Positions 2,975 through 57,297 of a stretch of DNA of 57,886 nt are shown piece by piece. This DNA comes from Pleurocapsa sp. CCALA 161 (GTDB lineage Bacteria > Cyanobacteriota > Cyanobacteriia > Cyanobacteriales > Xenococcaceae): assembly GCF_003003995.1 (NCBI RefSeq), contig NZ_PVWF01000018.1:1-57886 (forward strand), in the 5' to 3' direction. Position 1 is the first letter of the stretch. The number at the start of each line of letters is the position of its first letter. The notes below the pieces were generated by a model. The model saw only the letters and a list, made by a program, of their open reading frames with translations. It did no database searches and had not been told where the DNA came from. Position numbers and translations under genes: made by a program.

Positions 2975-3823
2975 ATGCAAGAATTCATAGTTTCTACTCT
3001 CGAAGACGAAAACGACGGCGATCATAATGCAGGAGATCTATCTTTAAGAGAGGCGATCGCCCTGGCTAATGAAAATGAAGGTGAAGATTCAATTACTTTT
3101 GACTCTAGCTTAAGTGGTGGCAGCATCGGCTTAACTCAAAGCGAACCTACCCCAAGGGGTGGCGAATTCAACCAAGACTTAGAGATTACTGATTCCTTAA
3201 ATATTGTTGGTTTGGGTGCGCAAAACTTAACTATTGATGGGCTTAGTCGTGGCAATGGTATCTTTGAAATCACGGGAGAAAACACAAACGTCAACCTCGA
3301 AGGACTAACCATCGCCAATGGCAGTGACGCACGATTCTTTTTCAATGATGCAGGGGTAGGCGGAGCAATTAAATTCTCAGGGGATAATCTCACTGTAAAA
3401 GATTCTTTAATCACTAATAGTTTTGCAGATATTGGAGGTGCGATTTCTAGCTCAGGTCATGTCAATATCAATGGAAGTACAATCAGTAATAATAGTGGAC
3501 CTGGTATTTCTGATCCAAGCGGAGCTATTGATGCCAGCTCGTTAGATGTCACCAATAGTACGATCAGCGATAATCGCGATCGTGGTATCTTGGCAGGCAC
3601 ACTGAATATTACTAACAGTACTGTTAGCGATAATAATACGAATAATACTAGCAACGGCAGCTCGGGTTTTGCTACTGAAATTCTTACCAAAGGCGGAACG
3701 GCAAATGTTACTAGTAGTATCGTTACGGGAAACAGCCAGGATCAGAACAGTGGTGATAAATTCACGGACTTGGGTGGAGAATTTATCAGTGGTGGAAATA
3801 ATTTAATTGCTGAGAGTGATTGA
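2975..3823 (+). pseudogene. N-terminal part of giant CSLREA/RTX adhesin, cut off by a frameshift
   Basis: Encodes the first of four CSLREA-type modules. The header (VVSTLEDENDGD..AGDLSLREAIALAN type) is at residues 5-35, followed by beta-helix repeats rich in NST and NNS turns that end in GGNNLI. The frame stops at TGA 3821-3823, exactly where the sister modules continue into FVNGENGDLVGT and the 'PQLGELQDNGG' segment. Skipping the T at 3821 restores the reading frame, so the intact gene would be 2975-8144, about 1720 residues. An AGGA about 7 bases before the ATG supports this start. There is no Sec signal. The cause could be a real mutation, phase variation or a sequencing error. Confidence 0.8.
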
Positions 3824-6800
3824 TGGTTCTAGCAGTTTTGTCAACGGTGAAAACGGCGATATAGTTGGCACTACTGACAACCCCATCGATCCACAACTAG
3901 GAGAATTACAAAATAATGGTGGTGCTACTCTAACTAAAGAATTACTGGCAGGAAGTCCCGCGATTGATACAGGTAGTAATCCTGATGGTTTAGCTACCGA
4001 GCAACGAGGAGAAGGCTTTAACCGTACTGTCGGGGATGGTACTGATATCGGTGCTTTCGAAGTTCAAACAATTCATGGTGGTGGAGGAACAATTCCTGAT
4101 GAACTTGTTGTTTCTACTCTAGAAGATGAGAATGATGGTGATTTTGGTGCAGGAGATCTCTCTTTAAGGGAGGCAATCGCCCTGGCTAATCAACAAGAAG
4201 GTGTAGATGCGATTAGCTTCGATTCTAATTTAAGTGGTGGCACAATTGCTTTTGCCGAATCTCAAGAGCGCAATCTAGCGATTAATGATTCGGTTTCAAT
4301 TAACGGTTTGGGTCAAGATAACTTAACTTTAGATGGTGGCTTTATTTTTAATGTTGCTAATGCCGAGGCTGATGTTGCCATTGATGGCTTAAATCTCACT
4401 GGCAGTAAAATTGACAGCTTTGGTAATTTAACCCTAACTAACAGCACTTTGAGTCAAACCCTGGATATTGCTGGTTTTTCGGACAATAGTGCGATTATTA
4501 GCCGAGGCACGACAATTATCAGCGACTCGACGATTAGAGATAATAGTGGCGGAAGTAATGTCGGAATTGTAGTTGAATCAGGAACAACCAATATTGAACG
4601 TAGTACAGTTGCCAATAATGAAGCTAATTATGCTAACTCAGGAATTACTGTCCGTAGTGATGCTACCGTAAATCTCAGTAATAGTACTGTTGCTAATAAC
4701 CAAGGCAGATCTCGTGGCGGGATTGATAATGATGGCACACTTAATGTCACCAACAGTACCATAGCTAATAATAATGGCGGTTTAAATGCAGGGGGCATTC
4801 TAAACTCTGGTAGTGCAAATATAACTAGTAGCATTGTGGCGAATAACAATCTTACTAGTACTCCGATTGGAGATATTTCAGGTGAAGGAGAGTTTGTTAG
4901 TGGAGGAAACAACTTAATTGGTAATGGTGATGATGCAGAAGGTTTCACAGATACCGATCTTGTGGGTACTATTGATAATCGTCTCGATCCGCAACTAGGT
5001 GAATTACAAGATAATGGTGGTGCAACTCCAACTAAAGAACTACTAGCAGGAAGCCCCGCGATTAATACTGGTAGTAATCCTAATGGTTTAACTACTGATC
5101 AGCGTGGAGAAGGCTTTGACCGTACTGTCGGGGATGGTACTGATATCGGTGCTTTTGAAGTTCAAACAACTCATGGTGGCGGAGGAACAATTCCTGATGA
5201 ACTTGTTGTTTCTACCCTAGAAGATGAAAATGATGGTGATTTTGGTGCAGGAGATCTCTCTTTAAGGGAGGCGATCGCCCTGGCTAATCAACAAGAAGGT
5301 GTAGATGCGATTAGCTTCGATTCTAATTTAAGTGGTGGCACAATTACTCTATCTTCGGGTGAATTACTAATTGATAAAAGTCTAAACATCGAAGGCTTGG
5401 GGGCTGAGAATCTCACAATTGATGCCAATGATGCTAGTCGAGTTTTCAAAATCAATGATGGTGATGCAAACAGCCAAATTGATGTAGGTATCAATGGATT
5501 AAAAATTACTGGCGGTAATGTCCAAAATCCTAATTTGGAGATTCCAGATGAAAGTAGAGGAGGAGGAATCCTTAATCAAGAAAGCTTAACTCTTGCCGAT
5601 ACTAACCTCACAGGCAATAAAGCCGTTGAAGGAGGAGGAATTTACAATCTGGAAGCTAGGGCTGAGATTATCGATAGCAATGTTAATGGTAATTCTGGGA
5701 GTGGAATCTATAATTCCCGATCTACGGTCAATATTAGCAGCAGCAGCATTAATGAGAATGATACAGGAGGCTTGAACGATCTATCGACTGGTATAAATTC
5801 TGATTCCTCAACAGTCAATATTGTTGATAGCACTGTTTCTTATAATTCATCATCGTTTGCCGGCAGTGGCGGAATAGGCATCGTCAACTCAACGATGAAT
5901 ATTAAAAACAGCTCTGTTAATAATAACAGTACATCAGTATTCGGTGAAGCGGGAGGAATTGATTCCGATAGTAATTCAACTCTACGTATTAATAACAGCA
6001 ATATCAGCAACAACTTTGGTGATCCTGGTAGTGAATTTGATCCAAAGGCAAGAAGAGCAGAAGCTAGTGGCTTAAAAACATCAGGCACAACTATTATTAC
6101 GAACAGTACTATCAGCAATAATACAGGGGTAGGCGATGGAGTGCTTAACTCTGGAAATTTAGATGTTAATAATACGACTGTTAGTGGTAATGCGGGTAGT
6201 GGAATAAGGACTGGTCAAGGTAGTGGAACTTCGACTATTAGCAACAGTACTGTTGCTAATAATGATGTAGGTGTTAGGTCTATTGATGCAGATAGCGTGA
6301 CAATTGTCAGTAGTATTGTGGCTGATAACAATGACACCGACTTGAATACACAGCAGGGAAATCCAGTTATTACTAGCGGTGGCAATAACTTAATTGGCGA
6401 TCGCGGTAATGTAGAAACATTTGTTGACGGAGAAAACGGTGATCTAGTTGGCACATCTGAAAGCCATATTGATCCTCAACTGGGAGAATTACAAGATAAT
6501 GGCGGTGCAACTCCTACCCAAGAACTTTTAGATGGCAGCCCTGCTATTGACACTGGGAGTAATCCTAATAATCTCACTACTGATCAACGGGGTGATGGCT
6601 TTAATCGCACGGTAGGTGAAGGAACTGATATCGGTGCTTTTGAAGTTCAAACAACTCATGGTGGCGGAGGAACAATTCCTGATGAACTTGTTGTTTCTAC
6701 CCTAGAAGATGAAAATGATGGTGATTTTGGTGCAGGAGATCTCTCTTTAAGGGAGGCGATCGCCCTTTCTAATCAAAGCGAAGGCGAGGACACAATTACT

Positions 6801-31844: not shown

Positions 31845-32250
31845 ACGCTATTGAGATCCAACTTGACTATGTTTTAATTTGATTGTGACGCGAAGGACGC
31901 GAAGCTAATCCTTTAGGGCTAATACCTTTAGGGCTGATATTTATAATTATGAGCTTTTTTTAAGTCAAAATAGTTAGCGATCGCAGAACAAACAATCTAA
32001 TGACACAGTAACATGATCGCGATTTTTGAATTTTGAAGCTGCCGTGCGCATAACACCGTAAACTATTATTGAGTTCAGGTGAGGTTAAAAGGTTCTCATA
32101 TAACAATTGTTACCCAACCTAGGTCGACGTGATCCCTCTGCCGACCTATCTAAATAAAAAGCGCGATCGCTTCAGAGTCTCTGAGTCTAGGATAAGATCT
32201 GAATGATGAAATGCTCATGCATTAACAATGAATAATGGTTAAAATTTGAT
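31845..32250. other. intergenic region with dispersed repeat
   Basis: Holds a copy of a repeat (31888-31920) that matches, inverted, one at 45529-45561, and a HIP1 site near 32163. A second partial copy (cctttagggctgat) follows directly. No gene seen. Confidence 0.55.
31888..31920 (-). repeat. dispersed repeat, copy 1
   Basis: Reverse complement runs AGCCCTAAAGGATTAGC then TTCGCGTCCTTCGCGTC and is identical over about 33 bases to 45529-45561. The core is also found at about 55893-55912. Confidence 0.75.
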
Positions 32251-32730
32251 ATGGAAGAAATATTAGAACTTAAACAAAGTTTGTTATCAGGTAATATTGA
32301 CAGGGCTTTATGTATTGCAGAAGAGCTTGAAGAAGTGGGTAGAAAATCTATTATTGAAAATTTAGAGTCTTTTTTAGTAGTTCTTTTAATTCACTTAATC
32401 AAAAATCAGGTTGAGCAAAGATTAACTAGCTCTTGGAAAAAGTCAATTTTAAATAGTTTGGTAGCAATTCAGAAAAAAAATAAGCTAGGTAAAAAGGCTA
32501 ATTATATCTATCAAGATGAATGGTTGGAATATATTGAATTTAATTATCCTAGTGCTTTGTTGAATAGTAGTTATGAAATTCTTGGAGGAATTGATTATCA
32601 AGAATTAAAAATGCTAGTTGATCAAGAAAAGCTATTTAATATAACCACAAGCTTAGTTAATTTGACTTATGTCAAAAATCAAGATGAATTAATTTTAGTT
32701 GTAAGCAAAGAGTTGGAAAAATTAATCTAA
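32251..32730 (+). CDS. DUF29 family protein
   Basis: 159 residues, helical. ELKQSLLSGNIDRALCIAEELEEVGRKSIIENLESFLVVLLIHLIKNQ follows the DUF29 pattern (E.LEEMGR...L.S.L..LL.HLLK), though the usual N-terminal 'YxxDFxxWxxxxAxxL' portion is replaced. Many cyanobacteria carry numerous DUF29 copies of unknown role. The AT-rich codon use differs somewhat from the housekeeping genes. Confidence 0.7.
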   Translation: MEEILELKQSLLSGNIDRALCIAEELEEVGRKSIIENLESFLVVLLIHLIKNQVEQRLTSSWKKSILNSLVAIQKKNKLGKKANYIYQDEWLEYIEFNYPSALLNSSYEILGGIDYQELKMLVDQEKLFNITTSLVNLTYVKNQDELILVVSKELEKLI

Positions 32731-33003
32731 TTTATGAAACAGAAAATAAATATTGGGCGACCACCGTGTTGAAATTATCAATCGAGAAAGTGTGATCGCT
32801 TCAAAAAAATTAGATTTCTTTATCTGTATTCTCTGTCAATCTTCAAGATAGCGCTCATACTTAACCTTAATCATCTTTGTTTAGGTAGTCAATAATGGGA
32901 GCATATCAGTTTGGCTAGAACATTGTAACTGCGTAAGAGATTTTGGCGGTCATAATTACCAGTTGTATTATTACTTAGTAATCTCCCACAATAGTAAATT
33001 TGA

Positions 33004-33873
33004 TTAAACAAAACTTTTTTCAATAATTTCTCTAGGTATCTCTCTATAGTATTCTAAGTATTTTTCAATTATTTTAGTTGGATTATAATCCTGATTTTCA
33101 ATTTTGTATTCTAAAGAGTTAGAAAACTTTAATTGTAAATTTTGATAATGAGACTCATAAATAGGATAAACTGTATGAGCAAGAGGATCTTTTAAAAAAG
33201 TAACTTCGTCTTTAATCGTCAGAAAATCTAAAATTGCTTTACCCAAGTAGATAAATAAAGGTTTACTGGGATGATTTACTGTATGAAACAATCGCTCTTT
33301 TTGATAATTATCTCTAATAAATTTGCTTACTTTAATATCTATTTGTTTTTCAGAGCCGAAAATACTAGACTCTCTTCTTTCAAGTTCCTTCAGCGATTCT
33401 TCAACTGCCTGCAAAGAGAATTCTTCTGAATAAAATTTATCATTAAGTATAAAATCTTGAGGTTGAGGATTAGCTTCTGACAAAAAATATTTCATCATGT
33501 TTTTATCATGATAATCAAATTCATCTTTATTAACGCCATCTCTAATTAACTTTGTATGTTTTATTTCAGGAGTATAGCCATTAAAATAGCAAGAAGGAAA
33601 TGAAATTGAAATTGCATCAGATTTTAGTTTAGACAGCAAAAAATTAGTTGAATATCGCTCATTGTTGTTATACTTTTCAGAAACTGGCTGAAAGATAAAT
33701 AAATCTAAGTGGGGTAATACTTGATCAATATAATAATCTATCTCTTCAGTTCTAATCATGTGTACTGCTTTAATATCTACATATTCAAACGTACTTTTAA
33801 ATATTTTAGAGGAATTTAAAACTCTTGGTAATATCCTCGCCTGACAGTTACCATAAACTGTGTATTTTTTCAT
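33004..33873 (-). CDS. WcbI-type polysaccharide biosynthesis protein (putative acetyltransferase)
   Basis: 289 residues. The opening TVYGNCQARILPRVL is the hallmark of the WcbI family, where YGNCQ forms part of the CoA site and may support acetyl transfer during capsule synthesis. DLFIFQPVSE and ISFPSCYFNGYTPE follow, as in the family. No signal peptide. It is the last gene of the minus-strand glycan run, AT-rich and without HIP1. The acetyltransferase role is predicted from structure of relatives only. Confidence 0.8.
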   Translation of the reverse strand: MKKYTVYGNCQARILPRVLNSSKIFKSTFEYVDIKAVHMIRTEEIDYYIDQVLPHLDLFIFQPVSEKYNNNERYSTNFLLSKLKSDAISISFPSCYFNGYTPEIKHTKLIRDGVNKDEFDYHDKNMMKYFLSEANPQPQDFILNDKFYSEEFSLQAVEESLKELERRESSIFGSEKQIDIKVSKFIRDNYQKERLFHTVNHPSKPLFIYLGKAILDFLTIKDEVTFLKDPLAHTVYPIYESHYQNLQLKFSNSLEYKIENQDYNPTKIIEKYLEYYREIPREIIEKSFV

Positions 33874-34012
33874 TTTTTAAGTTCATTAGTATTAGTTTTT
33901 TTTGCACAAAAAATAAATTAATTTAGCTAATTTAACTCAAATATATTATTTTGTAACTAACATATAATCTATGGGTAAAAAATTGATTGCTAATCATAAT
34001 ATTTTAGTTTTG

Positions 34013-34849
34013 CTATACATATAAAAGATATTCAAGACCAGCATTATGTAACTTTTTTTTAAATTCTACAGAATCTATAATTTTATTAGCAATATTGGCT
34101 CTTTGATCTTGTTTTTTATAAGACGTATCAAATTTTATCTTGTTAACTACATTTTGCAATTCGAGATTAATGCCAACTGTTCTAAGAAAATTAATTAGAT
34201 AAATAAATTTGTCTTTATCAGATTTTTGCCAATGTAATCCCTCATAGCTAATAACTGAAAAGTTTTGTCCTATATTTATAAGCTCATTCTCAAATAATTG
34301 ATACCATTCATTGACCCAATTAAACCATTTTAAGAATTCATCAAAATTTATTTTCACTTGTATTTTAGATGTATCTACATGTCCCCATTTTTTTGACTCA
34401 AGAGCTATCTCTCTAGATATATAAACATCTAGTAAGTTTCTTTTTATTAAAATCTTTTTAATGCTATTGTCACTTATAATTATTTTTTTTATTAAATCTG
34501 TTTCTAATTGTCCTGGAAAAATTTTGAAACTAAAATAATTTTTAATGCTACTTTTTTTAAGTATAGTAAATAATTTATCAGGATGATCATGTATCCATTT
34601 GATCAAACTTATATCTTTATAATTTAAAAAACTTCTGGAATATTCGTCATTAATGAGACTAATTATTTTTTTGTTATCTCTGGCATAAAAATTATGTCTA
34701 TGAAAAATTTCATAGTGAGATATAATCTTATAATGATTATGCAGTAATTCGCAAATATAATTTGTTCCAGTTCTAGGTAGAGATATCCAAGCAATAGACG
34801 TAGCTGGTTGATAGCTATTATTAATCAACTTAATTTCCTCCAAATTCAA
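34013..34849 (-). CDS. sulfotransferase-like protein
   Basis: 278 residues. IAWISLPRTGTNYICELLHNH resembles the PAPS 5'-phosphosulfate-binding loop, and IKKILIKRNLLDVYISREIALESKKWG matches the 3'-phosphate-binding region (R.N..D...S). Likely sulfates a sugar or lipid using PAPS from CysC. It is AT-rich and probably acquired with its neighbours. It could be a distant member of the Stf0 or sulfotransferase-3 groups; the acceptor is unknown. Confidence 0.7.
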   Translation of the reverse strand: MNLEEIKLINNSYQPATSIAWISLPRTGTNYICELLHNHYKIISHYEIFHRHNFYARDNKKIISLINDEYSRSFLNYKDISLIKWIHDHPDKLFTILKKSSIKNYFSFKIFPGQLETDLIKKIIISDNSIKKILIKRNLLDVYISREIALESKKWGHVDTSKIQVKINFDEFLKWFNWVNEWYQLFENELINIGQNFSVISYEGLHWQKSDKDKFIYLINFLRTVGINLELQNVVNKIKFDTSYKKQDQRANIANKIIDSVEFKKKLHNAGLEYLLYV

Positions 34850-34890
34850 ATAAATGTTAGACAGTATTTATTGTTAAAAAGATTTGTACA

Positions 34891-35550
34891 TTAGTTAAGA
34901 GTATTAAAAATCATAATTATGCATTCTCCTCTAACTCTCCAACAGAAATTCGTATAAATGTGATATTCAAGGGGGTTTAACTTAGTAACAAAATCACTAT
35001 CTATTGTTTGAAGATGCCCTTGTCTTAGATCTTGTTCATTATATGGACAGGCAATGATAGCGTATTTTTTTGTTAATTTCCTAAGTTTTTCAACAAATGG
35101 AACTGGATCGGAGAGATGTTCAATCACATGGCTACATATAATCAGATCCCAAGTTTGATCTTCAGGAATTTTAAAAATATCTTGTTTGACAAAATTAAAT
35201 GATGGATAGCACAATTTCATATAATCGTGAAAATTATCAGTAATATCTAACCCCATTACATTCATTTTTAAATGATTGTAGCTTCGTTTGTTATGTAGTT
35301 CTGCCAATAATCCAGTACCAGCTCCACTATGAATGCCAACATCCAAAACGTTGAGAACTGTACCTTGGGGAACGTTATAAAAAAGACGATAAATATGAGG
35401 GATAATATCAATAATAAACAAGCGTGATTGCTGTACACTTTTTCTATCAATTGCGAAAACCTGATCTGATAAATTACCCAAGCTTTTTTGCTTAATCTTA
35501 TTAAATTCATGATGAAAATTATGGATATCACTATTATTAATATTAATCAT
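34891..35550 (-). CDS. class I SAM-dependent methyltransferase
   Basis: 219 residues. Motif I is VLNVLDVGIHSGAGTGLL, motif II is MNVMGLDITDN, and motif IV is WDLIICSHVIEHLSDPVPFVEKLRKL, as in methyltransferase-11/23 proteins. It lies between the sulfotransferase and the multi-module glycosyltransferase on the same strand, so it may methylate a glycan residue. The C-terminus is short after the core. Confidence 0.82.
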   Translation of the reverse strand: MININNSDIHNFHHEFNKIKQKSLGNLSDQVFAIDRKSVQQSRLFIIDIIPHIYRLFYNVPQGTVLNVLDVGIHSGAGTGLLAELHNKRSYNHLKMNVMGLDITDNFHDYMKLCYPSFNFVKQDIFKIPEDQTWDLIICSHVIEHLSDPVPFVEKLRKLTKKYAIIACPYNEQDLRQGHLQTIDSDFVTKLNPLEYHIYTNFCWRVRGECIIMIFNTLN

Positions 35551-35630
35551 TATTTGTAATTTTTAGCAGATGTTTTTGTTGAAGACATTATAATATACGA
35601 TAAATAATATAGCAACTTAATTTTTATTTT

Positions 35631-38600
35631 TTAAATATCTGCAAATAGGTTATTGGCAACATTTTCCCATGATAAATGTTCAATAGTTTTATAAGATCTC
35701 TTTCTTAATTGTTTTTTTTCTTTGGTCTTTAAAGCTGCAATTTTAAACATTACTTGAGTAAGAGATGCTGTATCTCTTAATTCATATAAGAAACCGTTAG
35801 AACCACTTTCGAGTATCTCTTTAGTCATGCCTACGCGAGGAGCAATTACTGGACAACCAAAAGACATGGCATTTAATAAGGACCCAGAAGTTAGTATTTT
35901 CTGATATGGTAATACTGTGGCATCTGCTGCATTAAAAAATAATTGTAGTTCATTATCTAAAATATATCTTTCAATTAAAGTAATTCTTGATTTAGTTTCT
36001 GGCTCAATATCTAACTCCTCAAGATTTATCTGATCCATGGGTTTTCCTGCAACAAGTAAGTGAGTATGCGAAAATTTTTTCTGAACTTGATTAAAAGCAA
36101 TGATCAGATCTTCAACACCTTTATATTTACGTATTTGTCCTAGAAACAGAAATACTGTTTGTTCCGAGGTGAAATTGAAATGCTTTCTGGCTTCTTCTCT
36201 CGTTATGGTATTAGGATAAACTCCAACATAATTTCCATGAGGAATTACTACTACTTTTTCTGAAGGAACATTGAGATGCTTTTTAATTTCTGGCAATGAT
36301 GATGCAGAATGAATATAAATTTTGCTAGCAGCAATACAAATAATATTTCTTAGCTCAATTTCCTGTTTTAAATAAAGACAATCATGAGGTAAAACATTGT
36401 GAATAGTCCAAATTAAACTACCTCCTGCGGCTAAAAATTCAAACAATTTTTTGATAAAGATATTTTTTAGTCTTTCTGCATCTTCGAGGTTGTTTGCCTC
36501 TCTGAGAATATAATTAGTCCAGTGCAGGTGAAAAACTACCTTACCAATACCATCTCGTATTGCCTGTAAAGCATTACCGATGTCTCCAGAATATAAAGCA
36601 TAATTATCAGGAAGGTGTGAATACAATAGATTTTGATAAATATTGCTCTTGCGATAATCAGGGAAGAAAAAAACATTGGTGATAGGATGTTTACGTCGAT
36701 AAGAAACTTTCCGTGGTTGGCTAGCATCAGGAGCATATACCTCCCACTCATCAGCTAAGTGCATCCTCTCTAAAGCATAAGTTAGAACTACATGCGTATT
36801 GCTACTTTGTTTGTTTTCATTGACAAAGGAGGTGTTGTTTCCGTGCCATCTTCTGAGATAAAGCATCTTTTCGACATGATAGAAAGCACAAACTTCGCTA
36901 AGTTTGAGAAACATATCGTAATCGACGGCATTAAGCAATTCTTCATTAAATCCGTCTGTCCGCAGCCAATCTCGCCTTCTAAACATCCTAAAATGATGAG
37001 CGATAGAAGTAATCATCATTTTTTCGCGGGAGAATGTGGGGTAGCTATATTCATCCTGAAGATAATTACCTTGGGCATCAATTCTTTCACAAGAACTATA
37101 GACGCAACCATATCCAGTATTATCTAAATAATCTACCATGGTGGCGATCGCATCGGGCTTGAGCAGATCGTCAGAATCTAATTGACCAATATACATCCCG
37201 CGACACATCCTTACCGCCGTATTGGAAGCTTTACCAATACCGCCATTGACTTGAGTTACCCATCTAACCTTGGGGTTATCTTGAAAGTTGTCGGTCAAAA
37301 CTTGCAAGGTATTATCAGTTGAACCATCATCACAAATGCACACTTCAACATCTGTATAGGTTTGATTGAGTACGCTTTCAACTGCCTCTTTGATGTATTT
37401 ACCATTATTGTAAGAAGGTATATAGATCGATACTTTTGGTATTTCGTAAATTACACCAGGCTCATAATTGCGATACCATTCCACGGGACATTTCTGTTCA
37501 AATAGCTTTTTTTGCTCTTGATGACTTGCTTTCTTATTATGCTGTTCCCTTCCTTCAGTTAAGTTTAGGTGTAGCCCCAAAGCATCAGCTACAGGAATAA
37601 AATAATATCCTGCATTGTAAATACGATAGCCTAATTCCTGATCTCGATAGCCCCAATGAGTAATGCTTTCATCGAAACAGCCCACCTGGTCAATTAATTT
37701 CTTAGAGAAGGCAATGTTCGAGCTAACAAAGGCTCTGAAAGGATAGCGGTCTTTTTTTAGCTGATCGGATTGTGCAAATAGTTTTTGTTGACTATGAAGT
37801 GTTTTGAGGTCGTCCTGTCGCGCAAGTTGTTCACTGCTAATAGCATCACTAATATTTGCTACTGCTACTGGATGATTTTTCAGTAGCTCTTGTTCTAGAG
37901 AATCCGCATCCACAAACAAGCGATCGCCTATCGTAACGATACGATCACTGACATGGAAATATTTCATGTAGCTTTCGACCAAGGAAGATAAGGGCAACAA
38001 ATCGCCATCTAAAATAATTAAATAATCATGCTGCGCCTTTTTGATTCCCGCATTTTGGAGTTGTTGAACTGCCATTGGTTTGGACTCAAAAACTATTTTA
38101 AGACCAGAATGTTTGCTGTCTAAAGCTTCAGCTTCTTGAGCTAGATCAGTACTCACTATGACTACTTCAATTAAATGTTGGGGATAAGTCTGATGAGCGA
38201 TCGCGTCTAATATTTGAGGTAACGCTATTGAGGAATGGTAACAAGCAATAATTATCGATACAGACAAAAAGTAAGGTTGTTTGCTGGCAACAAAGTTTTG
38301 GACACTTTGTTTAATTAAAGAATAATCGTTGTGTTCTCCAGGAAAAGGAGGTAGAACTAAGTCCGCAGGAAATCTTTCAAGCTGCGCCTGTTGATATTTT
38401 TTGACTATAGGTTTTAAATATCCAGTAGCATTACAAGCTGAGGCAACTACTGAAAACTTAAGCGGATTATTTTTTAGCTCTAGAGGATGTAAGCAAGTTG
38501 CTAATTTCTGGTTTTTATCTAGATCAATTTTTTTTTCTGACTGCTGACTTGCTTCTGTTTCAGAAGAGAAATTTTTTAACTTTAGTGTGATGTTGAGCAG

Positions 38601-48851: not shown

Positions 48852-49277
48852 AACTTAAATCATGAACATCAAAAATAGCAGATGCTTAAGCAATACTTCT
48901 AGATTAACTCGCTTCTATCAATCATAAAGGTTTTGCAAGGGACAAAATTATGATTTCTCAATTCTCTAAACAAACTATGGTCACATTAATGCTAAAACCG
49001 CCAGAAAAAAGATTAGTAGCCTTGCGTCAATAATACCTATAAGGTTTATTTACTCAAACAACTAAAACAAAAATACAAACACTTACTAAAGCTTTTTTCT
49101 ATATAAATAGGACAATTCAATTTAAGCTTATAAACCTAGGGATCAAGACCTATTTATCTTTAATGGTTACTTATCTATTTAAGCGATTTTAAAATATATC
49201 TTTAGAAGTAGCAAATTTTTCTATAAATATGGTTTATTAAAAAATCAATATTATTATTTAGGCAAGATAGTAGAGTT
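48852..49277. other. 426-bp AT-rich intergenic region
   Basis: Divergent promoter region for the sulfite-oxidase-like gene and cphB. No ORF above noise, HIP1, RNA gene or clear hairpin. Confidence 0.45.
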
Positions 49278-50123
49278 ATGGTGATAGTTGAGTCAAAAAA
49301 GAGCGACAATGACGCAGATGCTGTTAACAAATCTCAATCAGGACAGTTAATTATCATTGGTGGTGCGGAAGATAAAGAAGGGGAATGTCAAATACTCAGG
49401 GAGTTTATCCGTCGTGCAGGAGGTAGAGATGCCAAAATTGTCATCATGACTGTAGCAACATCTTTGCCAGGGGAAGTCGGTTCAGACTATCGATATTTAT
49501 TTGAAAAGTTGGGTGCAGATCGAGTAAAAATTGTTGATACTGAACAAAGAGAAGATGCCAGTGACTCAGGTAATCTAGAAGTGATTGAAAATGCCACTGG
49601 AGTGTTTTTTACAGGAGGCGATCAGGCACGTATTACTAATGTGCTTAAAGACACTGCAATTGATGACTTACTTCACCAAAAATTTGAGCAGGGTTTGGTA
49701 ATAGCAGGTACAAGCGCAGGTGCGGCTATGATGGCTGACATTATGATTGTCGAAGGAGAGGGAGAGACTAATCCTCGTCTGGATACAGTTACTTTAGAGC
49801 CAGGAATGGGTTTTTTAAGCCAAGTAGCGATCGATCAGCATTTTTCCCAAAGAGGAAGATTAGGTCGATTTGTGTCTGCCTTAATTCAACAACCTGCCGT
49901 CTTAGGTTTTGGCATTGATGAAAATACAGCGATCGCCGTTAACGGAGATGAAATTGAAGTCCTGGGCGAAGGTGCAGTCACTATTGTTGATGTAGCTAAT
50001 ATTAGTCATACTAACTTAAAAGAATCTCTACATGATGAAGCTTTAGCAATCTGCGGTGCTAAATTGCATATTTTACCCAATGGTTATCGTTTTAGTTTGA
50101 AAAAACGAGATTGCCTGTGTTAA
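49278..50123 (+). CDS. cphB: cyanophycinase
   Basis: Breaks the storage polymer cyanophycin into beta-Asp-Arg dipeptides. 281 residues of the peptidase S51 fold. The nucleophile Ser146 is in AGTSAGAAM, with FFTGGDQARI and AIDQHFSQRGRLGRF for catalysis and substrate binding. No cyanophycin synthetase (cphA) is adjacent, in contrast to many genomes. The first 22 residues are hydrophilic and variable; no signal peptide. Confidence 0.95.
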   Translation: MVIVESKKSDNDADAVNKSQSGQLIIIGGAEDKEGECQILREFIRRAGGRDAKIVIMTVATSLPGEVGSDYRYLFEKLGADRVKIVDTEQREDASDSGNLEVIENATGVFFTGGDQARITNVLKDTAIDDLLHQKFEQGLVIAGTSAGAAMMADIMIVEGEGETNPRLDTVTLEPGMGFLSQVAIDQHFSQRGRLGRFVSALIQQPAVLGFGIDENTAIAVNGDEIEVLGEGAVTIVDVANISHTNLKESLHDEALAICGAKLHILPNGYRFSLKKRDCLC

Positions 50124-50245
50124 TTGCCGATCCTTGCCACCTCTTGTTTCATGGACTCAGCAATTGCCAAAATCTGACTTAAGCCAGATAGCAAGAGTTA
50201 AACTACAGTGTTTAAATAATCTGTATTAATTAACCTGGGGTAACT

Positions 50246-51184
50246 ATGGCTACGGGAATGATGGTCGAAGGAACATGGACGAACGAAGAGTATCAACAGG
50301 ATAAAAAAGGACGCTTTCAACGTAATCCGACTACCTTTCGCCATCAGATTACTGCCGATGGTTCGAGCGGTTTTCCCGCCGTTGCCAACCGCTATCATCT
50401 TTATGTCTCCTACGCCTGTCCTTGGGCGCATCGCACTTTAATTATGCGTCAGTTGAAAGGATTAACGGAGGCAATAAGTATTTCTGTAGTCGATCCTTTG
50501 ATGGCACAAGATGGTTGGGAATTTAATAACTTTCCAGGAACTATTCCTGATACGGTGAATCACGCCAGGTATTTAAGAGAAGTATATGCGATCGCCGATG
50601 CAAAATATACGGGAAGAGTTACAGTCCCAATCTTATGGGACAAACAAACTGGATCTATAGTGAACAATGAGTCTCGTGAAATTATCCGCATGTTGGATAC
50701 CCAGTTTGGAGACATAGCTCAAAACCAAATCAATCTATATCCCCATGAATTGCAGGAGACAATAGATCGAGCGATCGACGATATTTATGACCCCATTAAT
50801 AATGGAGTCTATAAAGCTGGATTTGCCAAATCCCAAGAGGCTTACGAAGAGGCAGTTAAAAAATTGTTTGCTGCTCTAGATTACTGGGAAGATATGCTGG
50901 CAAAACAAGATTATCTGTGTGGAGACAGTTTAACCGAAGCAGATATTTGTATGTTTACTACCCTCTTTCGTTTTGATGCAGTCTATTATGTGCATTTCAA
51001 ATGCAATCTGCGCCACATTTGGGACTATCCAAATCTATGGAACTATGTCAAGAAAATTTATCAACATCCTCAAGTAAAATCCACCTGCAATCTTGAACAT
51101 ATCAAGCTGCATTATTATCAAAGCCATCCCCACATTAATCCTAGTGGCATAGTTCCCTATGGGCCAGCGATCGAGTTTACTTAA
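50246..51184 (+). CDS. glutathione S-transferase family protein, glutathionyl-hydroquinone reductase (Xi class)
   Basis: 312 residues. The active-site CPWA is seen at residues 58-61 in SYACPWAHRTLIMRQL, then FNGTIP-type strands and the C-terminal helical domain (LFAALDYWEDMLAKQDYLCGDSLTEADICMFTTLFRFD). The length and motifs match YqjG/ECM4 proteins that reduce glutathionyl-hydroquinones. It lies alone, upstream of a transposase relic. Confidence 0.92.
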   Translation: MATGMMVEGTWTNEEYQQDKKGRFQRNPTTFRHQITADGSSGFPAVANRYHLYVSYACPWAHRTLIMRQLKGLTEAISISVVDPLMAQDGWEFNNFPGTIPDTVNHARYLREVYAIADAKYTGRVTVPILWDKQTGSIVNNESREIIRMLDTQFGDIAQNQINLYPHELQETIDRAIDDIYDPINNGVYKAGFAKSQEAYEEAVKKLFAALDYWEDMLAKQDYLCGDSLTEADICMFTTLFRFDAVYYVHFKCNLRHIWDYPNLWNYVKKIYQHPQVKSTCNLEHIKLHYYQSHPHINPSGIVPYGPAIEFT

Positions 51185-51257
51185 CAAGTGACTATTTGAT
51201 CCCAGCCTGTAGGGGGGCTTTGCCAATATATTTCCATTGAAGCTAGTATGCTACCGT

Positions 51258-51389
51258 GTAGCTGGCATGGTCAAAAACCGTAAACTCAGCCGAGCAATTA
51301 GTGATGCTGGGTGGAGTAAGTTCAAAACCATGCTAGAATCTAAATGCGATAAGTACGGTAAAGATTTAACTATTGTATGTCCTAGCTAG
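51258..51389 (+). pseudogene. relic of a tnpB-type transposase gene
   Basis: A frame encodes VAGMVKNRKLSRAISDAGW then SKFKTMLESKCDKYGKDLTIV, a good match to the middle of IS891/IS1136-type TnpB proteins ('NV.GM..N..L...I.D.GW..F...L..K'). There are no flanking parts; the first residues are damaged and the zinc-ribbon end is missing. It abuts the 3' end of the AAA ATPase gene, whose last codons lie inside the relic. Confidence 0.75.
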
Positions 51390-52658
51390 TTCCATCAAAG
51401 CTCCCCAATCTGCTACTTTTGCCTCATGTATTTTTTGATGCACGAACGTAGCTGTACTATTAGTTTGGTCCTTGATCTTGGTAACTTGATCGCTCATTAT
51501 TTCGATCATATTCCCTGATGCGGCTGTTTTGACCCATTGCGTCGTAGAAGAGAGAATCATTTCTTGCAAGGAAGCGAAAGAGAGCTGATCTGTTAATTCT
51601 GCAATCTGATCGATCCCAGCATCTGATAGACCCATTGGCGATCGCTTTGGCGATTTTTTGACACTATTATTCCACTGCTCAATATAAGAGGCACGTTCTA
51701 TTATGCCTGGTAATTTAAACTCATACTTGCTATCAAAACGACCAGCACGATCGCGCAACGCTGGGTCGATTCTTTCAGGATGATTGGTTGTCGCTAAAAT
51801 CAAGACACCTTGATTAGAGCCAAAACCATCAACTACGTTTAAAAAGGACGAGCGATTGCTATCATCGATTAAGGAATCGAGATCTTCTAGAACAATAATA
51901 CAAGGTGCCATCTGCCGTGCCTGCTCAAATACCCTGCTAATGTTACTAGAGGAAGTCCTACAGTAAGACTTAAAGCTTTTCACGTACAAACAGGGTTTTT
52001 GTGCTTGATTAACTATAGCTTTAACAGTGTGAGTCTTGCCGTTACCCGGCGATCCAATGAATAAAATGCCACGTTTCCAAGATACGCCGTAATCTTCATA
52101 AATTTTACGTGAGGCGAAAAAGCTGCTGATTTCGTCTTCAATGTCCTCTTTAAGAGTCCCGCTCAAAATTAAGTTATCAAAATTTGAACTTTTGATCGAC
52201 TCAAACAGTTCTTTATCTTTTCTCCAGTCGCCGTTTTCATAGACTAAATTCTCACCTTTAACTTTCGTATTTGATTTACAAACCGCACTCAAGAAATCGT
52301 TCGCAACTTCTTTAGTGTTAGCTAAAATCCAGTAGTATTGAACTGGATGAGAACCCTGTTGCCACGTCATTAAGAGCAAATTGAGCTTATTTTCTTGCCA
52401 TGTGACCTCAAAATAGCCATTTACCGGGGTTTCGTAAAGTCCATAGCTCCTATACCACGTAGTCTGGCTCTGGTTGTAACAATATCTTGCCGACTTCACA
52501 ATACAAGGATTTGCCTTGGCAAAAGCTGTCACATTAAAGGCACAATCATGACCTTCGATGAATTCTTTGTTGGGAAATTTCGAGAACAATGACTGGCTAA
52601 CATAATAGGAAATTTCATTAGGGCTGAGACTGAGGGCTTTTTTAATGATCTTTTTCAT
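51366..52658 (-). CDS. AAA+ ATPase (BCS1/spastin-like core)
   Basis: 430 residues. The N-terminal about 185 residues are not recognised. The AAA core has Walker A GSPGNGKT (202-209), Walker B IIVLEDLD (254-261), sensor 1 LATTN (288-292) and the second region RDRAGRFD (302-309) with arginine-finger candidates. Residues about 320-380 are the helical lid (LTDQLSFASLQEM). It has no membrane segment, unlike mitochondrial BCS1. It is divergent from the TIR gene, with a shared 238-base promoter region. The last residues (ELARTYNS) are encoded inside the tnpB relic. Function unknown; a role with the TIR protein is inference. Confidence 0.82.
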   Translation of the reverse strand: MKKIIKKALSLSPNEISYYVSQSLFSKFPNKEFIEGHDCAFNVTAFAKANPCIVKSARYCYNQSQTTWYRSYGLYETPVNGYFEVTWQENKLNLLLMTWQQGSHPVQYYWILANTKEVANDFLSAVCKSNTKVKGENLVYENGDWRKDKELFESIKSSNFDNLILSGTLKEDIEDEISSFFASRKIYEDYGVSWKRGILFIGSPGNGKTHTVKAIVNQAQKPCLYVKSFKSYCRTSSSNISRVFEQARQMAPCIIVLEDLDSLIDDSNRSSFLNVVDGFGSNQGVLILATTNHPERIDPALRDRAGRFDSKYEFKLPGIIERASYIEQWNNSVKKSPKRSPMGLSDAGIDQIAELTDQLSFASLQEMILSSTTQWVKTAASGNMIEIMSDQVTKIKDQTNSTATFVHQKIHEAKVADWGALMELARTYNS

Positions 52659-52896
52659 TGTTTTGATTTGTTTAAAAGGTTTATTTTAGGACTTCTTTAG
52701 ATTAGCTGAAACAACTTTATAACTCAATTTTTCCAAGAATTAAAAATTTAAATCCTCTTAAGCCTCTTAGCGTAAGCATTATAGTTTAGGGCTACAGTAT
52801 GTTCAGAAATCTAATTTTCTTGGTTGGGGGGTATTAAATTCACGTCAAACGTTCTATACTAGAAGACAAATAATTCACAAATAATTTTTTAAAACA

Positions 52897-54621
52897 ATGC
52901 CAAAGTTGAGTTACGGGTCGACTATAGAAAAGCGAGCTTGGACACTTTTGTCAGTCCTAATCGAGCGTGCAGGACAGTCAGGTGTGCAAATGTGTCAAAT
53001 GGGAGATGGAAAACCCTACCTGAAGGTAGAGGCAACGCTCGAAACCATATCAACCTGGGCAACTCAATCAGATTCAAATTGTCCATTGGCAATTGAGCAA
53101 ATACGTCTGCTCCTGACCCAAAATTTTGGACAAAAGTTCTTAGGCATTATGACTGACCTGATAACAGAAAGAGGAGGTCCACAAGCAAGACCCTGGAGAT
53201 TTAAGATAACTATATGGTCTAAAAATAAGTCTGACAATGAATCGTACTTCGCTTCTGCATGGTCTGTTGCCAAGGAAAACCAACAATCAACTAACTCTTC
53301 TCAGGTGTTGAACTCGAGTCATCAGATATCATGTGAAGAGCGATATGATGTTCTCTTGTACTATGACGAAGAAGATAAAAATATAGTTAAAGAGATTGAA
53401 GAAAAACTAAGCAGAGAAGGAATAAAAGTGAGAACTGCTGAGCAGAATCGATGCCCTGGTCAAAGCAATTATAAAGAATGGGAAAAGCAGAGCATAGAGC
53501 AATGTAATTCAATCGCAGTTTTTGTTGGCAGTCATGACTCGGCTCTCTGGCAAGACAAGAAAAAACTTTCCTTCTTAAACAAATTTTACAAAAGTATTAG
53601 GTCAGACGCAAAAAAACGTTTTCCGATACCTGTGCTTCTCCCAAATGCTCCCTTAAATGCTTTCGAGCAAAAATCAGTTCCTCGCTACCTCAAGGGAGAT
53701 AGAAATGCTGTTGATTTTACCCAGGGAGTTTTTACTGAGAAGATTAACGATTTAATCTATGGGATTACAGGAGAGGATCAATCCAAAAAACAAAAGTTTT
53801 TGACACTTATAAGTCATAACCATAAAGATTTAAAGACTGATCAGTCTACAGAAGTAATTATTCCAGTATATGCTATGAAAGCATTAGAGCCAAAAAATGA
53901 GACTGAGGCCGCGAGTTTACCGTACAAAGCAACAGAAAATCTTCTAAACGAAAATAAAAATATTTACAACGCAAATTTGAATGATGTAAATGCTTATACA
54001 AGTATAACGCATGCATATAATGACAACAATTTGCCTATGCCTGATTTGATTGGAAATCATACAAGGGACGGAAACAATCTTGGTCTTTTGGAACAAAAGA
54101 AACAAAAGGAAAAAAATCATATTTTGATAGGACTTTCAACTCACATATTATATTTGCTTCAAAAAGAGAAGAGTATTAATAGTCTGACTAAAGGGCAATA
54201 TTTTTACGTCGGTACAACTCCAGATAAGAAATCAGATGAGAAAGAATACAATTTATTCTGGATAAAATGCGGTCGCTTTTATAAGCACAATGAACTATCT
54301 CTAGATACTAAATGGAGTTATTACAAACAGAATAAAAATAAAAGGTATGACTATGCGATATTTGCAAAGTTTGCAGCTCGCAGTAAAACAATAATGGTAT
54401 ATGGTGGGCTAACAGCAATAGCCACTGAAAGACTTGCACTTTATTTTAGGGACTATTGGGAAAAAATTTATGACAAATTGAAAGATGAAAAAGGTGGAAG
54501 CTTAAACCCTAGCGATGCATTTGCAGTGGTTATTGAAATTCCTGGGGTTGAGGTATCCGATCAAGAGCTAGAGTTAAGAGAATGTAAAATTGTAGAAGTA
54601 TGTATTAACAAAAATCCTTAA
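52897..54621 (+). CDS. TIR-domain protein with unrecognised C-terminal domain
   Basis: 574 residues, in order: an N-terminal helical/beta region (1-125), perhaps an effector-associated domain; a low-complexity linker (126-147, S/N/Q-rich); a TIR-2-like domain (149-292) with YDVLLYYDEEDKNIVKEIEEKLSREGIKV, EWEKQSIEQCNSIAVFVG, PIPVLLPN and VPRYLKG.R..VDF; a linker (300-405); and a C-terminal domain (about 407-570) that I cannot assign. Glu194 is the best candidate for the NADase glutamate, but the alignment there is ambiguous. TIR proteins often act as NAD hydrolases in bacterial immunity. A TATACT-like -10 lies at 52854. Confidence 0.8.
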   Translation: MPKLSYGSTIEKRAWTLLSVLIERAGQSGVQMCQMGDGKPYLKVEATLETISTWATQSDSNCPLAIEQIRLLLTQNFGQKFLGIMTDLITERGGPQARPWRFKITIWSKNKSDNESYFASAWSVAKENQQSTNSSQVLNSSHQISCEERYDVLLYYDEEDKNIVKEIEEKLSREGIKVRTAEQNRCPGQSNYKEWEKQSIEQCNSIAVFVGSHDSALWQDKKKLSFLNKFYKSIRSDAKKRFPIPVLLPNAPLNAFEQKSVPRYLKGDRNAVDFTQGVFTEKINDLIYGITGEDQSKKQKFLTLISHNHKDLKTDQSTEVIIPVYAMKALEPKNETEAASLPYKATENLLNENKNIYNANLNDVNAYTSITHAYNDNNLPMPDLIGNHTRDGNNLGLLEQKKQKEKNHILIGLSTHILYLLQKEKSINSLTKGQYFYVGTTPDKKSDEKEYNLFWIKCGRFYKHNELSLDTKWSYYKQNKNKRYDYAIFAKFAARSKTIMVYGGLTAIATERLALYFRDYWEKIYDKLKDEKGGSLNPSDAFAVVIEIPGVEVSDQELELRECKIVEVCINKNP

Positions 54622-54702
54622 TTTATCTAAAAAAGTATTTTAAGCTAAAACTGAGTTTGTCAAACCTTAACTTGTACATCAATCTTGTGTTTTCGTGCAA
54701 AG

Positions 54703-55383
54703 TTATTTTGCCTGCATCAATTTTTGGTAATCATAGTAAGACATTTTTACTGCCTTATCAAAGTCGCAGGTTGCTACCTGAGAGAAATTATTAGTATGTG
54801 GTTGAATATATTTGTCGGTTATATTCAGTGTCGAAATTCCTACATCTGATGGCATCAAAGTGTGATTCACAAAACGAGGAAAACAAACGACACTAGCAAA
54901 ATCAAAGGGTATTCTAACAACAGTATCAAATTCTAATCTTGGGTCATGAATCACAAAATCTGCACTTGTTAATTTGTATTTAGATGTAGCAATAATAATT
55001 GAATCGACTTCATGGTAATGCGGCTCAATATTATACTCATTAAATTTAATGTCTTTAGATTTATCATCATGAGGCGAGTCGTGAACAAGCCTTGCTGCAA
55101 ACTCTTTCATGTATAGTAGAGTTGATGTCGAAGGTAGTTGATGTGGTAGATAAAAAGGGGCTGTTTCAAACAGTTTATCTTTATCTAAAGTATTAATGAG
55201 TTCGAGACTAGGATGGTAGCATTCATCCACGTTAAATAAAATCTTTCCCTCGTCCCAACTTTGGCGAATAAAATCTTTGAATCTCTGCTGGGTTATATCT
55301 CCAACGATAGAGTTTACAATCTTTTCAATTTCATTATGAATACTTGAAATTAAAATCGTTTTGTCACTTAATTGATTTTGCAT
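54703..55383 (-). CDS. cupin-like protein
   Basis: 226 residues. The N-terminal half is helical with no recognised domain; the second half has PHYHEVDSIIIATSKYKL, a metal-binding HxH-like strand pair, then VRIPFDFASVVCFPRFVNHTLMPSDVGISTLNITDKYIQP, compatible with a cupin jelly roll. No membrane segment or signal. Convergent with the TIR gene, 81 bases apart. It could be a dioxygenase, an isomerase or a binding protein; I do not recognise the family. AT-rich, without HIP1. Confidence 0.6.
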   Translation of the reverse strand: MQNQLSDKTILISSIHNEIEKIVNSIVGDITQQRFKDFIRQSWDEGKILFNVDECYHPSLELINTLDKDKLFETAPFYLPHQLPSTSTLLYMKEFAARLVHDSPHDDKSKDIKFNEYNIEPHYHEVDSIIIATSKYKLTSADFVIHDPRLEFDTVVRIPFDFASVVCFPRFVNHTLMPSDVGISTLNITDKYIQPHTNNFSQVATCDFDKAVKMSYYDYQKLMQAK

Positions 55384-55629
55384 TTATTCTTGTTTAAACA
55401 ACTAACCCGCCCCTATGCAGTATCCTTCTAAAAACACCCTGACTCAACCCTATTAACGGGACTTAAACATAACATATAAAAGTATAAGCACAAAAAACTA
55501 GAATGAAATGTGCCTTTTCAAACTTTTATGTCTAATGGTAGGCTTTTTTTCCATCATTATAGATGGGTTGTTACCACTACATTGTCATTATCTGTTTTGT
55601 GAGGTAGTGCGTTGGGCGGTTTCACCGAC
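55384..55629. other. intergenic region right of the TIR block
   Basis: AT-rich, with no ORF or hairpin of note, leading into the IS701 relic. Confidence 0.4.
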
Positions 55630-55930
55630 TTGAAGCAACTACCAAACTCGAAAAGCCAATTTCTCCTATATATTGACGACCCACTCCTGCGGTGAAATTG
55701 CCCACAGCCCGCGAGTCAACGGTTTCCTCAGCGTATAAAACGGAGCAAGCAACCACTTTTACAATGCCCCGAATCATCAATAATCAGGCTTAATCCTCTA
55801 CTTATTCTGGTTTGGCATTTGTTCATCACCTCTAAAAGACGCTTATTTATCTCGTCCGCAGACCAAGTAGCTTCAGTTACAAAGCGATGCAGCGGACGCG
55901 AAGCTAATCCTTTGAGTTTACTTAACAAAT
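55630..55930 (-). pseudogene. relic of an IS701-family transposase
   Basis: Minus-strand fragments LHRFVTEATWSADEINKRLL, then RGLSLIIDDSGH.KSG and, in another frame, VGRQYIGEIG match the DDE transposase of IS701 (the D of IIDD and the 'RQYIG' box). At least one frameshift and both ends missing. A copy of the dispersed gcgaagctaatccttt repeat is at 55897-55912. Confidence 0.75.
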
Positions 55931-56042
55931 CTCTATTTACGACAGGTTAACAATAAAACTGCAACAAAAACTGAGTGCGAATCTACAAGGAAACACACCC
56001 ATTATTTTACTGATTTACCTGTCAACGTTTGCACAGCAAAAT

Positions 56043-56219
56043 CTATTCTTCGTCTTCGTCTTCATCATCTTGAGGATAAACAAAACTATTAGAACGTCCA
56101 GACAAAACTGATTTGCCTAAAGATAAAGCTTTTTGAGCTTCTACCGCAGCTTTACGCTTCCAAACCGCTTTACGACTATCACGTTTCGATTTAGAAGTTT
56201 TCTTCTTGGGAACTGCCAT
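56043..56219 (-). CDS. rpmF: 50S ribosomal protein L32
   Basis: 58 residues, starting [20 protein letters not shown], then [21 protein letters not shown], the usual L32 basic start, and a very acidic cyanobacterial-type tail (DDEDEDEE). The zinc-type CxxC residues of some L32 proteins are absent, as in many cyanobacteria. Located after a conserved hypothetical gene on the same strand. Confidence 0.96.
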
Positions 56220-56273
56220 ATTATTTAATTTAAAAAGACAACCTTACTATTGTAATGGTTCTGTTCCAAAAAA

Positions 56274-57053
56274 CTAGAGGGTTTGACCAGGAAATAAGCT
56301 CATTCCTCCAACAAACTGAGTTTCATCAGCTTCAGGCGAGTCTAAAAACTTTTGGTGAACAATGTTGCGAAACTCTTCTAAGTCTGTTTTCCAGTGATTG
56401 AGAAAGTTAGTCATCTGAGTCATTATGCTAGATGATTCTACTGCGCCTAGGTTGACGTTGTAATTAAAGTTACCTGAAAAAAGAATTGCTGCGATGGGAC
56501 TTTCTTGGGGCTTTTGTAATTTTGCCTCAGAAATACTAATCGTCAGTTGGCATCTTTCTAGATGATACATAAGGTTAATACCTGCCTGGAGCGGAGTTTT
56601 GCCAATAAATTTCCATGCCCCTGAACCGAGTAAAGATTCGGTTATATATTGACGCACTGCTTGAGGAGTAGCAGGAAACGGAAGTAAAATTTTAGGACTA
56701 AAGCTCAAGCCCATATATTTGGCGTGAGGCAGTTTTTCCACGTATTTGCCTGCCACTTGCTGGATTGCTATGTCTTGTGATTGTTTATTGGTGAGAGATT
56801 CACTAAAAGTAATGGTGCGAGGTTGAGCATTAATGCCGACACCGTTAGTGAAATTTAATTGAGCAAAATTAGGATTTACTACTGGTTGTTGAGCTAATTG
56901 CCAATCTTGAGGAATAATACCGCTCAATTTGAGAAAATCTTGACCGATTGTGGTGGGAATTAAATCCTGGGCGGCGATAATCAGAGATATTTCTTCAATC
57001 GATTGGGTATTACTTGGTGAATTAATTACGGATGCTACATTTGCTGTTGTCAT
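56274..57053 (-). CDS. conserved hypothetical cyanobacterial protein
   Basis: 259 residues, no signal or membrane segment. EEISLIIAAQDLIPTTIGQDFLKLSGIIPQDW and QLNFTNGVGINAQPRTITFSESL are regular and probably conserved. Mixed alpha/beta, with no catalytic motif seen. It lies 54 bases upstream of rpmF and may share transcription. Function unknown. Confidence 0.65.
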   Translation of the reverse strand: MTTANVASVINSPSNTQSIEEISLIIAAQDLIPTTIGQDFLKLSGIIPQDWQLAQQPVVNPNFAQLNFTNGVGINAQPRTITFSESLTNKQSQDIAIQQVAGKYVEKLPHAKYMGLSFSPKILLPFPATPQAVRQYITESLLGSGAWKFIGKTPLQAGINLMYHLERCQLTISISEAKLQKPQESPIAAILFSGNFNYNVNLGAVESSSIMTQMTNFLNHWKTDLEEFRNIVHQKFLDSPEADETQFVGGMSLFPGQTL

Positions 57054-57297
57054 GAGGATTTAGTCAGCCAAAACTGCCACTTAAGGTGTACAGCCATTCC
57101 CTCCCGCAACGATCCCAAATAATGGGAGTCTTAATTACATCTAAATGTCTTGATAGCAATAAATTTAGTCGCAAGTTTTAGGAATGACCATAAATTAATT
57201 TGCCCAAAAGAGCAGCAAAATACACCAGATTCTAGAATCTCGTCAGCCAGCTAGCGCGATCGCGAATTCCTCAAAAAGAGCTAAGTTTTACTCCTGC

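Follow-up and report, generated by a model that had tools for sequence, protein, structure and literature searches.

A convergent pair of EAD4–TIR-like and cupin-like genes in an inserted block of Pleurocapsa DNA, a candidate conflict module

Introduction

Bacterial TIR domains are commonly taken for destroyers of nicotinamide adenine dinucleotide (NAD). The described systems closest to the locus treated here are the EAD-coupled conflict systems, in which, following the scheme as it is outlined in PMC7159879 (Kaur et al., 2020), one EAD occurs twice in a genome, once joined to an effector and once on a core protein. Here, we describe a locus from Pleurocapsa sp. CCALA 161 (source genome 5.37 Mb in 249 contigs), situated on a stretch of 57,886 nucleotides of contig NZ_PVWF01000018.1 that was analysed at full length and is called the window in the following. 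Near its right end, at 51,258–55,930, a block flanked by transposase relics holds a gene for a protein with an EAD4 and a TIR-like domain, a cupin-like gene convergent with it and an AAA ATPase gene. Literature searches found no published description of an EAD4–TIR protein paired with a cupin, and the word “cupin” has 0 occurrences in the main texts of PMC7159879 and PMC8195603; relative to the EAD-coupled conflict systems, the cupin partner, unreported in these searches, appears to be new.

We propose tentatively, and at somewhat less than an even chance, that the functional unit of this block is a two-gene module made up of the EAD4–TIR-like gene and the convergent cupin gene, and that it represents a rare anti-invader conflict module with a non-catalytic TIR domain. 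As regards defence, the pair is possibly an immunity module and is treated as a candidate. Its two genes are:

52897–54621, plus strand: core gene 1 of the pair; EAD4, degenerate TIR domain and a C-terminal region particular to the family, 574 residues
54703–55383, minus strand: core gene 2, convergent with gene 1; cupin-like protein, 226 residues

The TIR-like protein

The preliminary description of this DNA read the first gene as a TIR-domain protein and overlooked its N-terminal domain. EAD4 (PF19959) covers residues 7–123 at 40.7 bits against a cut-off of 27, and TIR_2 follows at residues 152–285 with 33.3 bits against a cut-off of 28, spanning almost the whole domain. In the homologue from a second genome, G522 (locus L126), EAD4 reaches 72 bits, above the cut-off, and TIR_2 15.1 bits, below it. 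The approximately 270 C-terminal residues matched no family in Pfam-type scans and no known enzyme family. This region was found only in the window protein and its G522 homologue, between which 49/165 residues are conserved, and six patterns for it had no match in genome contigs. An NreA-like assignment, weak in the window protein (E 0.0015), was not seen with a two-sequence profile and was given up.

The two positions associated with TIR activity are both replaced. The glutamate position of WxxxE is lysine and the aspartate position of WLD is alanine, in the window protein as well as in the G522 homologue (2/2 for each). The WLD aspartate we take to be the counterpart of AbTir D167, a correspondence drawn by eye and not from an alignment with AbTir. 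According to the passages of PMC11374754 that bear on activity, the WxxxE glutamate is required by most bacterial TIRs, and mutation of AbTir D167 inhibits activity.

In an alignment of comparison TIRs from cyanobacteria, both residues are retained throughout (glutamate 18/18, aspartate 18/18), the tryptophan of WxxxE being tyrosine in one of them (L110). The comparison set consists of the best TIR match per locus, taken from 12/12 TIR-type places of the phylum search, one plasmid match and 5/5 places of the family search outside the own genome, with re-fetched duplicates dropped; the L111 domain comes from a place listed with stops, and only a single reading frame was used for it. Addition of five further TIR-like domains, four in tandem open reading frames (ORFs) of L041 and one in L100, gives 22/23 for the glutamate and 22/23 for the aspartate (4/5 and 4/5 among the five alone). 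One L041 domain has valine for the glutamate and another L041 domain asparagine for the aspartate, and none of the 23 is without both. The L041 ORFs lie at 3593–5312 of the locus on a plasmid of Calothrix NIES-4101; they are annotated as TPR and hypothetical, each contains two tandem TIR-like domains, and they adjoin a TIR-bearing WD-repeat protein. A TIR from an Acaryochloris plasmid (see below) was kept apart from these counts, as it shows alanine or aspartate at the glutamate column depending on the alignment and serine at the aspartate column.

Because the glutamate and aspartate positions are replaced in both members of the family and retained in the comparison TIRs, the domain is degenerate, and an NADase reading is not supported for the TIR-like protein, nor is the earlier proposal of an NAD-consuming effector. 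One possibility is that the protein is still an NADase or another nucleotide enzyme, either by way of a rearranged active site or through an enzyme in its C-terminal region, with the cupin as regulator or antidote. The nearly complete TIR_2 match, the conservation within the C-terminal region and the Acaryochloris TIR, which likewise misaligns at the glutamate, can be cited in its favour; set against them are the loss in both members of two positions linked to activity (in the part of PMC11374754 cited above), the absence of a known enzyme family among the matches of the C-terminal region and the disappearance of the NreA match with the two-sequence profile. On this balance, we consider residual enzymatic activity quite unlikely.

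The gene pair in other genomes

The second pair, in a genome of the same order (G522, locus L126), was found by a search with the cupin alone. A TIR-like homologue of 570 residues is encoded 3.3 kb from the cupin gene, and the pair is convergent (tail to tail) there as it is in the window. To judge by these two arrangements, the TIR and cupin genes move as a pair, and this part of the three-gene module suggested in the preliminary description is borne out. The cupin is 76% identical between the window and G522, pointing to strong constraint on the protein, and the TIR-like partner only 33% over its whole length. At four-fold sites of conserved codons, 39/56 and 34/59 are identical for the two genes (Fisher P 0.245); this similar third-base divergence agrees with a shared history of the two genes under unequal constraint on their proteins, though as a test it is weak.

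The cupin is very rare. With a query of one or two sequences it was found in 1/386 genomes of the phylum, the own genome only, and it occurs in 2/335 genomes of the order, own included, the two samples overlapping to an undefined degree. Among plasmids it was found in 1/72,556 records, and among 50,697 phage records in none. No full-length relative of the TIR-like protein was found in the 386 phylum genomes, in which 18 had a match and all but the own covered EAD4 or TIR only, or in 27 family genomes (4 with a match). No further member turned up in phage records or, in weak searches that used between two and six short patterns apiece, in viral contigs; plasmids gave no match in one search and three at E 1 to 6, too high to be useful, in another.

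The plasmid relative of the cupin, 28% identical, is encoded on Acaryochloris plasmid pMB08 directly after TIR and FGE-sulfatase genes. In this locus (L040, 6018–9510), genes for a TIR protein, an FGE-sulfatase, the cupin-like protein and an 8xMP membrane protein stand in a row.

The cupin assignment itself is weak. Neither the window protein nor the L126 homologue has a Pfam match at E 0.1, and the Acaryochloris relative matches Cupin_2 at E 3.1e-4, below the cut-off. The residues H122, H124 and H174 of the HxH...H motif are kept in 3/3 relatives, and the fold model, with a mean predicted local distance difference test (pLDDT) score of 29.9, is unusable.

The surroundings of EAD4 were considered in other cyanobacteria and in the own genome. 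All 8 proteins at eight EAD4-type places in other cyanobacteria have EAD4 and STAND-type NTPase matches (at L063 only below cut-offs). Six of these proteins have TPR or HEAT repeats; a WD40 gene comes after that of L064, and a contig end truncates that of L059. An EAD4-coupled system is recognized by a terminal fusion of EAD4 to an effector or signalling domain, which is seen in the window protein and in L126, and by the same EAD on a core component, adjacent or elsewhere in the genome, which is not seen in the own genome. There, a single EAD4 place was found at E 0.1, in the TIR-like gene itself; three candidates were scored, and a more divergent partner could be missed. The TIR-like protein may consequently be self-binding, have a partner too divergent to see, or be an orphan.

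The AAA ATPase

The third gene of the block lies on the other side of the TIR-like gene:

51366–52658, minus strand: AAA ATPase, a divergent member of a mostly cyanobacterial family and a probable bystander; its last codons enter the tnpB relic

The protein matches PF00004 at E 7.2e-25, and its closest solved relative is YjoB (7w42, E 2.3e-43). Its Walker A motif, GSPGNGKT, is intact, and the Walker B and RFD regions are common with its relatives. At 1e-40, at least 4 of the 386 phylum genomes have a match, own included, a minimum count for which only 4 first-look candidates were scored per genome; at 1e-30, 1/27 family genomes has one, the own genome. When GTDB genomes were scanned for the N-terminal domain of the protein, 36 loci were obtained, of which 34 are cyanobacterial, one is myxococcal and one, a weak match, is in a Prevotellaceae contig.

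The preliminary description suggested a module of three genes in which the AAA protein senses or regulates, the TIR protein degrades NAD and the cupin assists, and it named the co-occurrence of homologues of the AAA N-terminal domain as a check. That all three ORFs are intact inside one insertion, that Walker A is kept and the Walker B and RFD regions are shared with relatives, and that PADLOC scores the protein against IetA at up to 79 bits are in keeping with such a module. A tblastn search at 1e-3 over the 520,903 bases of the 36 AAA loci found no related TIR, EAD4 or cupin gene in any locus (0/36); the queries were the TIR protein of the window and four others, a pair of cupins and a pair of EAD4 domains. 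No AAA relative was seen in the stretches fetched around the two other cupins, and the glutamate and aspartate of the TIR domain are replaced. On the loci searched, the AAA protein was rejected as a part of the module, and a sensor or regulator role is not supported; the gene is probably a bystander, and the three-gene arrangement is very improbable. By TIR profile, 1/36 AAA loci (L100) has a TIR gene, approximately 5.5 kb from the AAA gene. The window AAA forms a long branch (1.71) outside the others in the tree, so that what is seen at the relatives' loci applies to it only partially.

Many members of the family have a neighbour of their own. Among these loci (L024, L071–L100), 22/36 have a second and different AAA gene upstream in the same direction, at a distance of 117 to 1909 bp and in 19/22 cases within 520 bp, the two encoding proteins of about 400 and 406 residues, and a GNAT gene is found in 11/36. 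In the own genome, the second AAA gene is matched only at the level of the AAA domain.

The insertion site

The remaining features of the block and its junctions are:

51267–51386, plus strand: tnpB (TNB domain) relic, 40 residues; PF07282, E 7.2e-4, below cut-off
55728–55928, minus strand: IS701 transposase relic ORF; NF033540, E 1.2e-8, below cut-off
51173–51187, plus strand: 15-bp direct repeat GAGTTTACTTAACAA, left-hand copy, located where the GST gene ends
55914–55928, plus strand: 15-bp direct repeat GAGTTTACTTAACAA, right-hand copy; one copy only at the empty site in G399 (L043)
51196–51236, minus strand: 41-bp fragment resembling the 56274–57053 gene, a left-junction scar; 97.6% to L043 14075–14115

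The three ORFs and the two transposase relics of the preliminary description were recovered at exactly the same places. The insertion site was read in 12 other genomes of the genus. In G399 (L043), the GST gene and the homologue of the 56274 gene are neighbours, approximately 0.37 kb apart, with a single copy of the 15-bp sequence, representing an empty site. Because this site has one repeat and the window has two, the block is, on the comparison of these sequences, a genuine insertion with a target duplication, and the earlier view of a block gained as transposase-flanked cargo stands. The insertion is established by the empty site, and no mobilising element is assigned to it. The TIR and cupin genes have no match in the site stretches of the 12 congeners, and the AAA protein has one, in L051, which is 27.6% identical, AAA-domain-like only and located elsewhere.

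In G402 (L042), the homologue of the 56274 gene is 97% identical, the block is absent, and the GST gene is reduced to a 59-bp end match. In the other 10/12 congeners, the GST gene is absent and the genes at 48.25–48.86 kb and 56.27 kb are directly adjacent. The cyanophycinase gene has no match in 12/12 congener stretches. Window positions 48860–56274 can be described as an accreting site, since congeners lack cyanophycinase, GST and the block, each in its turn. The site has, on these absences, accreted more than once.

The likeness of the IS701 relic to IS701 genes at the DNA level begins near 55894 and extends leftward. The idea that the 15-bp repeat is a piece of an IS701 gene was rejected, the IS701 genes of L119, L120 and L121 differing there in residues and bases. 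Within window positions 55600–55894, the relic has a stretch of approximately 50 bp that is missing from 6/9 IS701 loci; the alignments of L116 and L123 run across it, and L122 is not covered.

A stretch free of HIP1 octamers, also noted in the preliminary description, is real (51638–57256) and includes native flanking DNA. A longest gap of this size has P ~0.09 with 64 sites placed uniformly, and by itself the gap was rejected as a sign of foreign origin or transfer. A second long HIP1-free stretch, at window positions 32163–37144 (4981 bp), has a G+C of 0.245–0.354 per kb, and its composition marks it as foreign more clearly than that of the present block does. Within the block, G+C is 0.401 in the AAA gene, 0.365 in the TIR gene and 0.333 in the cupin gene.

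These features bear on whether the block is passenger DNA, in which transposition has left genes without relation to one another as a patchwork and the proximity of the TIR and cupin genes is fortuitous or merely due to a shared island. Relics at both ends, the 41-bp scar, the unequal G+C and a site that accretes (cyanophycinase absent in 12/12, GST absent in 10/12, with a tail of it left in a further one) are what such a patchwork would leave, and in G522 a TPS-domain gene encoding 978 residues lies between the pair on the strand of the TIR gene. Against a fortuitous origin, the second pair was found via the cupin only, and two very rare genes lie 3.3 kb apart in the same relative orientation in a 5.3-Mb genome, which is unlikely by chance and for which we arrive at a rough estimate of ~0.001 before their rarity is taken into account; the strong constraint on the cupin likewise argues against DNA that is merely carried along. 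We regard the passenger explanation as doubtful.

Discussion

Several observations weigh against the two-gene module that we favour. Apart from the TPS-domain gene inside the second pair, the exact pair is present in only two genomes. The Acaryochloris TIR is a different, short protein without detectable similarity to the window TIR, and it aligns poorly at the glutamate and aspartate columns. The expected docking partner of EAD4 is missing in the window's own genome, at the sensitivity of the search described above. Degeneration of the TIR domain is not exclusive to the family, as is seen from the two L041 domains, one without the glutamate and another without the aspartate. Single-protein structure models are unusable, at a mean pLDDT of 35.0 for the TIR-like protein and 29.9 for the cupin, and the C-terminal and cupin folds are unsupported. 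Finally, the block may be decayed in part, given the relics at both ends.

If the pair is a conflict module, it could function as follows. EAD4 would dock the TIR-like protein by like-with-like contacts, through self-association or binding to a STAND-type sensor. The TIR-like domain would serve as a scaffold or decoy for assembly rather than as an NADase. The fast-evolving TIR-like protein could be the part that recognizes the invader. The constant cupin, probably metal-binding, may bind a small molecule and thereby act as a ligand sensor or as an enzyme that sets or reads a signal. Together, the two would act inside the cell against invaders, as a rare module that is moved by insertion, and the AAA gene and the transposase relics would have arrived with the same patchwork insertion and remain outside the module. 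The more specific proposal, that a kind of two-gene immune module not found in our searches joins a metal-binding cupin, constant and responsible for signalling or enzymatic work, to a receptor-scaffold in the form of a fast-evolving EAD4 protein with a non-catalytic TIR, is one we put forward with considerable doubt.

If true, TIR domains could serve as assembly parts in bacteria, as they do in animal adaptors, and cupins would join the immune signalling proteins. A caution applies in either case: a TIR match in a presumed defence island does not alone make an NADase.

Comparison with known systems

The preliminary description did not recognize the set as a named system, and the comparison with two such systems agrees with this. 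The TIR-type domain resembles Thoeris ThsB in a PADLOC match of 14.8 bits (E 0.0037), which is weak and partial; the architecture differs, and no ThsA-type neighbour is found among the ORFs of the block. The AAA protein resembles the YjoB and IetA ATPases, with scores of 33–79 bits against the IetA PADLOC models in addition to the YjoB match given above, but reaches only 65.4 bits with the NCBIfam model IteA (NF042959), for which the cut-off is 510. Inside the block there is no protease ORF as in IetAS, and the S51 and S41 peptidase genes are found beyond its limits. On gene content and profile scores, the module is neither Thoeris nor IetAS.

By sequence, cyanobacterial TIR-GUN4 and TIR-EAD6 proteins are among the nearest TIR domains; six of the nearest that were scanned comprise four TIR-GUN4, one TIR-EAD6 and one TIR alone. 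They differ from the window protein in keeping the WxxxE glutamate and the WLD aspartate, and in their other partner domains. The EACC1 two-gene system, as far as it is presented in PMC7159879, offers a parallel at the level of the pair, a constant small component beside a more variable effector-type protein. EACC1, however, is a membrane-helix domain whose neighbouring gene is often of caspase type, whereas the cupin here has no Pfam match at E 0.1.

The EAD-coupled conflict systems are described in Kaur et al. (2020; PMC7159879) and PMC8195603. The Pleurocapsa pair stands apart from them in being without a cognate EAD4 core protein in the genome, in the lost TIR active site and in the cupin companion. 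It shares with them an N-terminal EAD4 fused to a TIR-type domain and a fast-evolving partner combined with a constant companion, and STAND–EAD4 proteins are found in other cyanobacteria.

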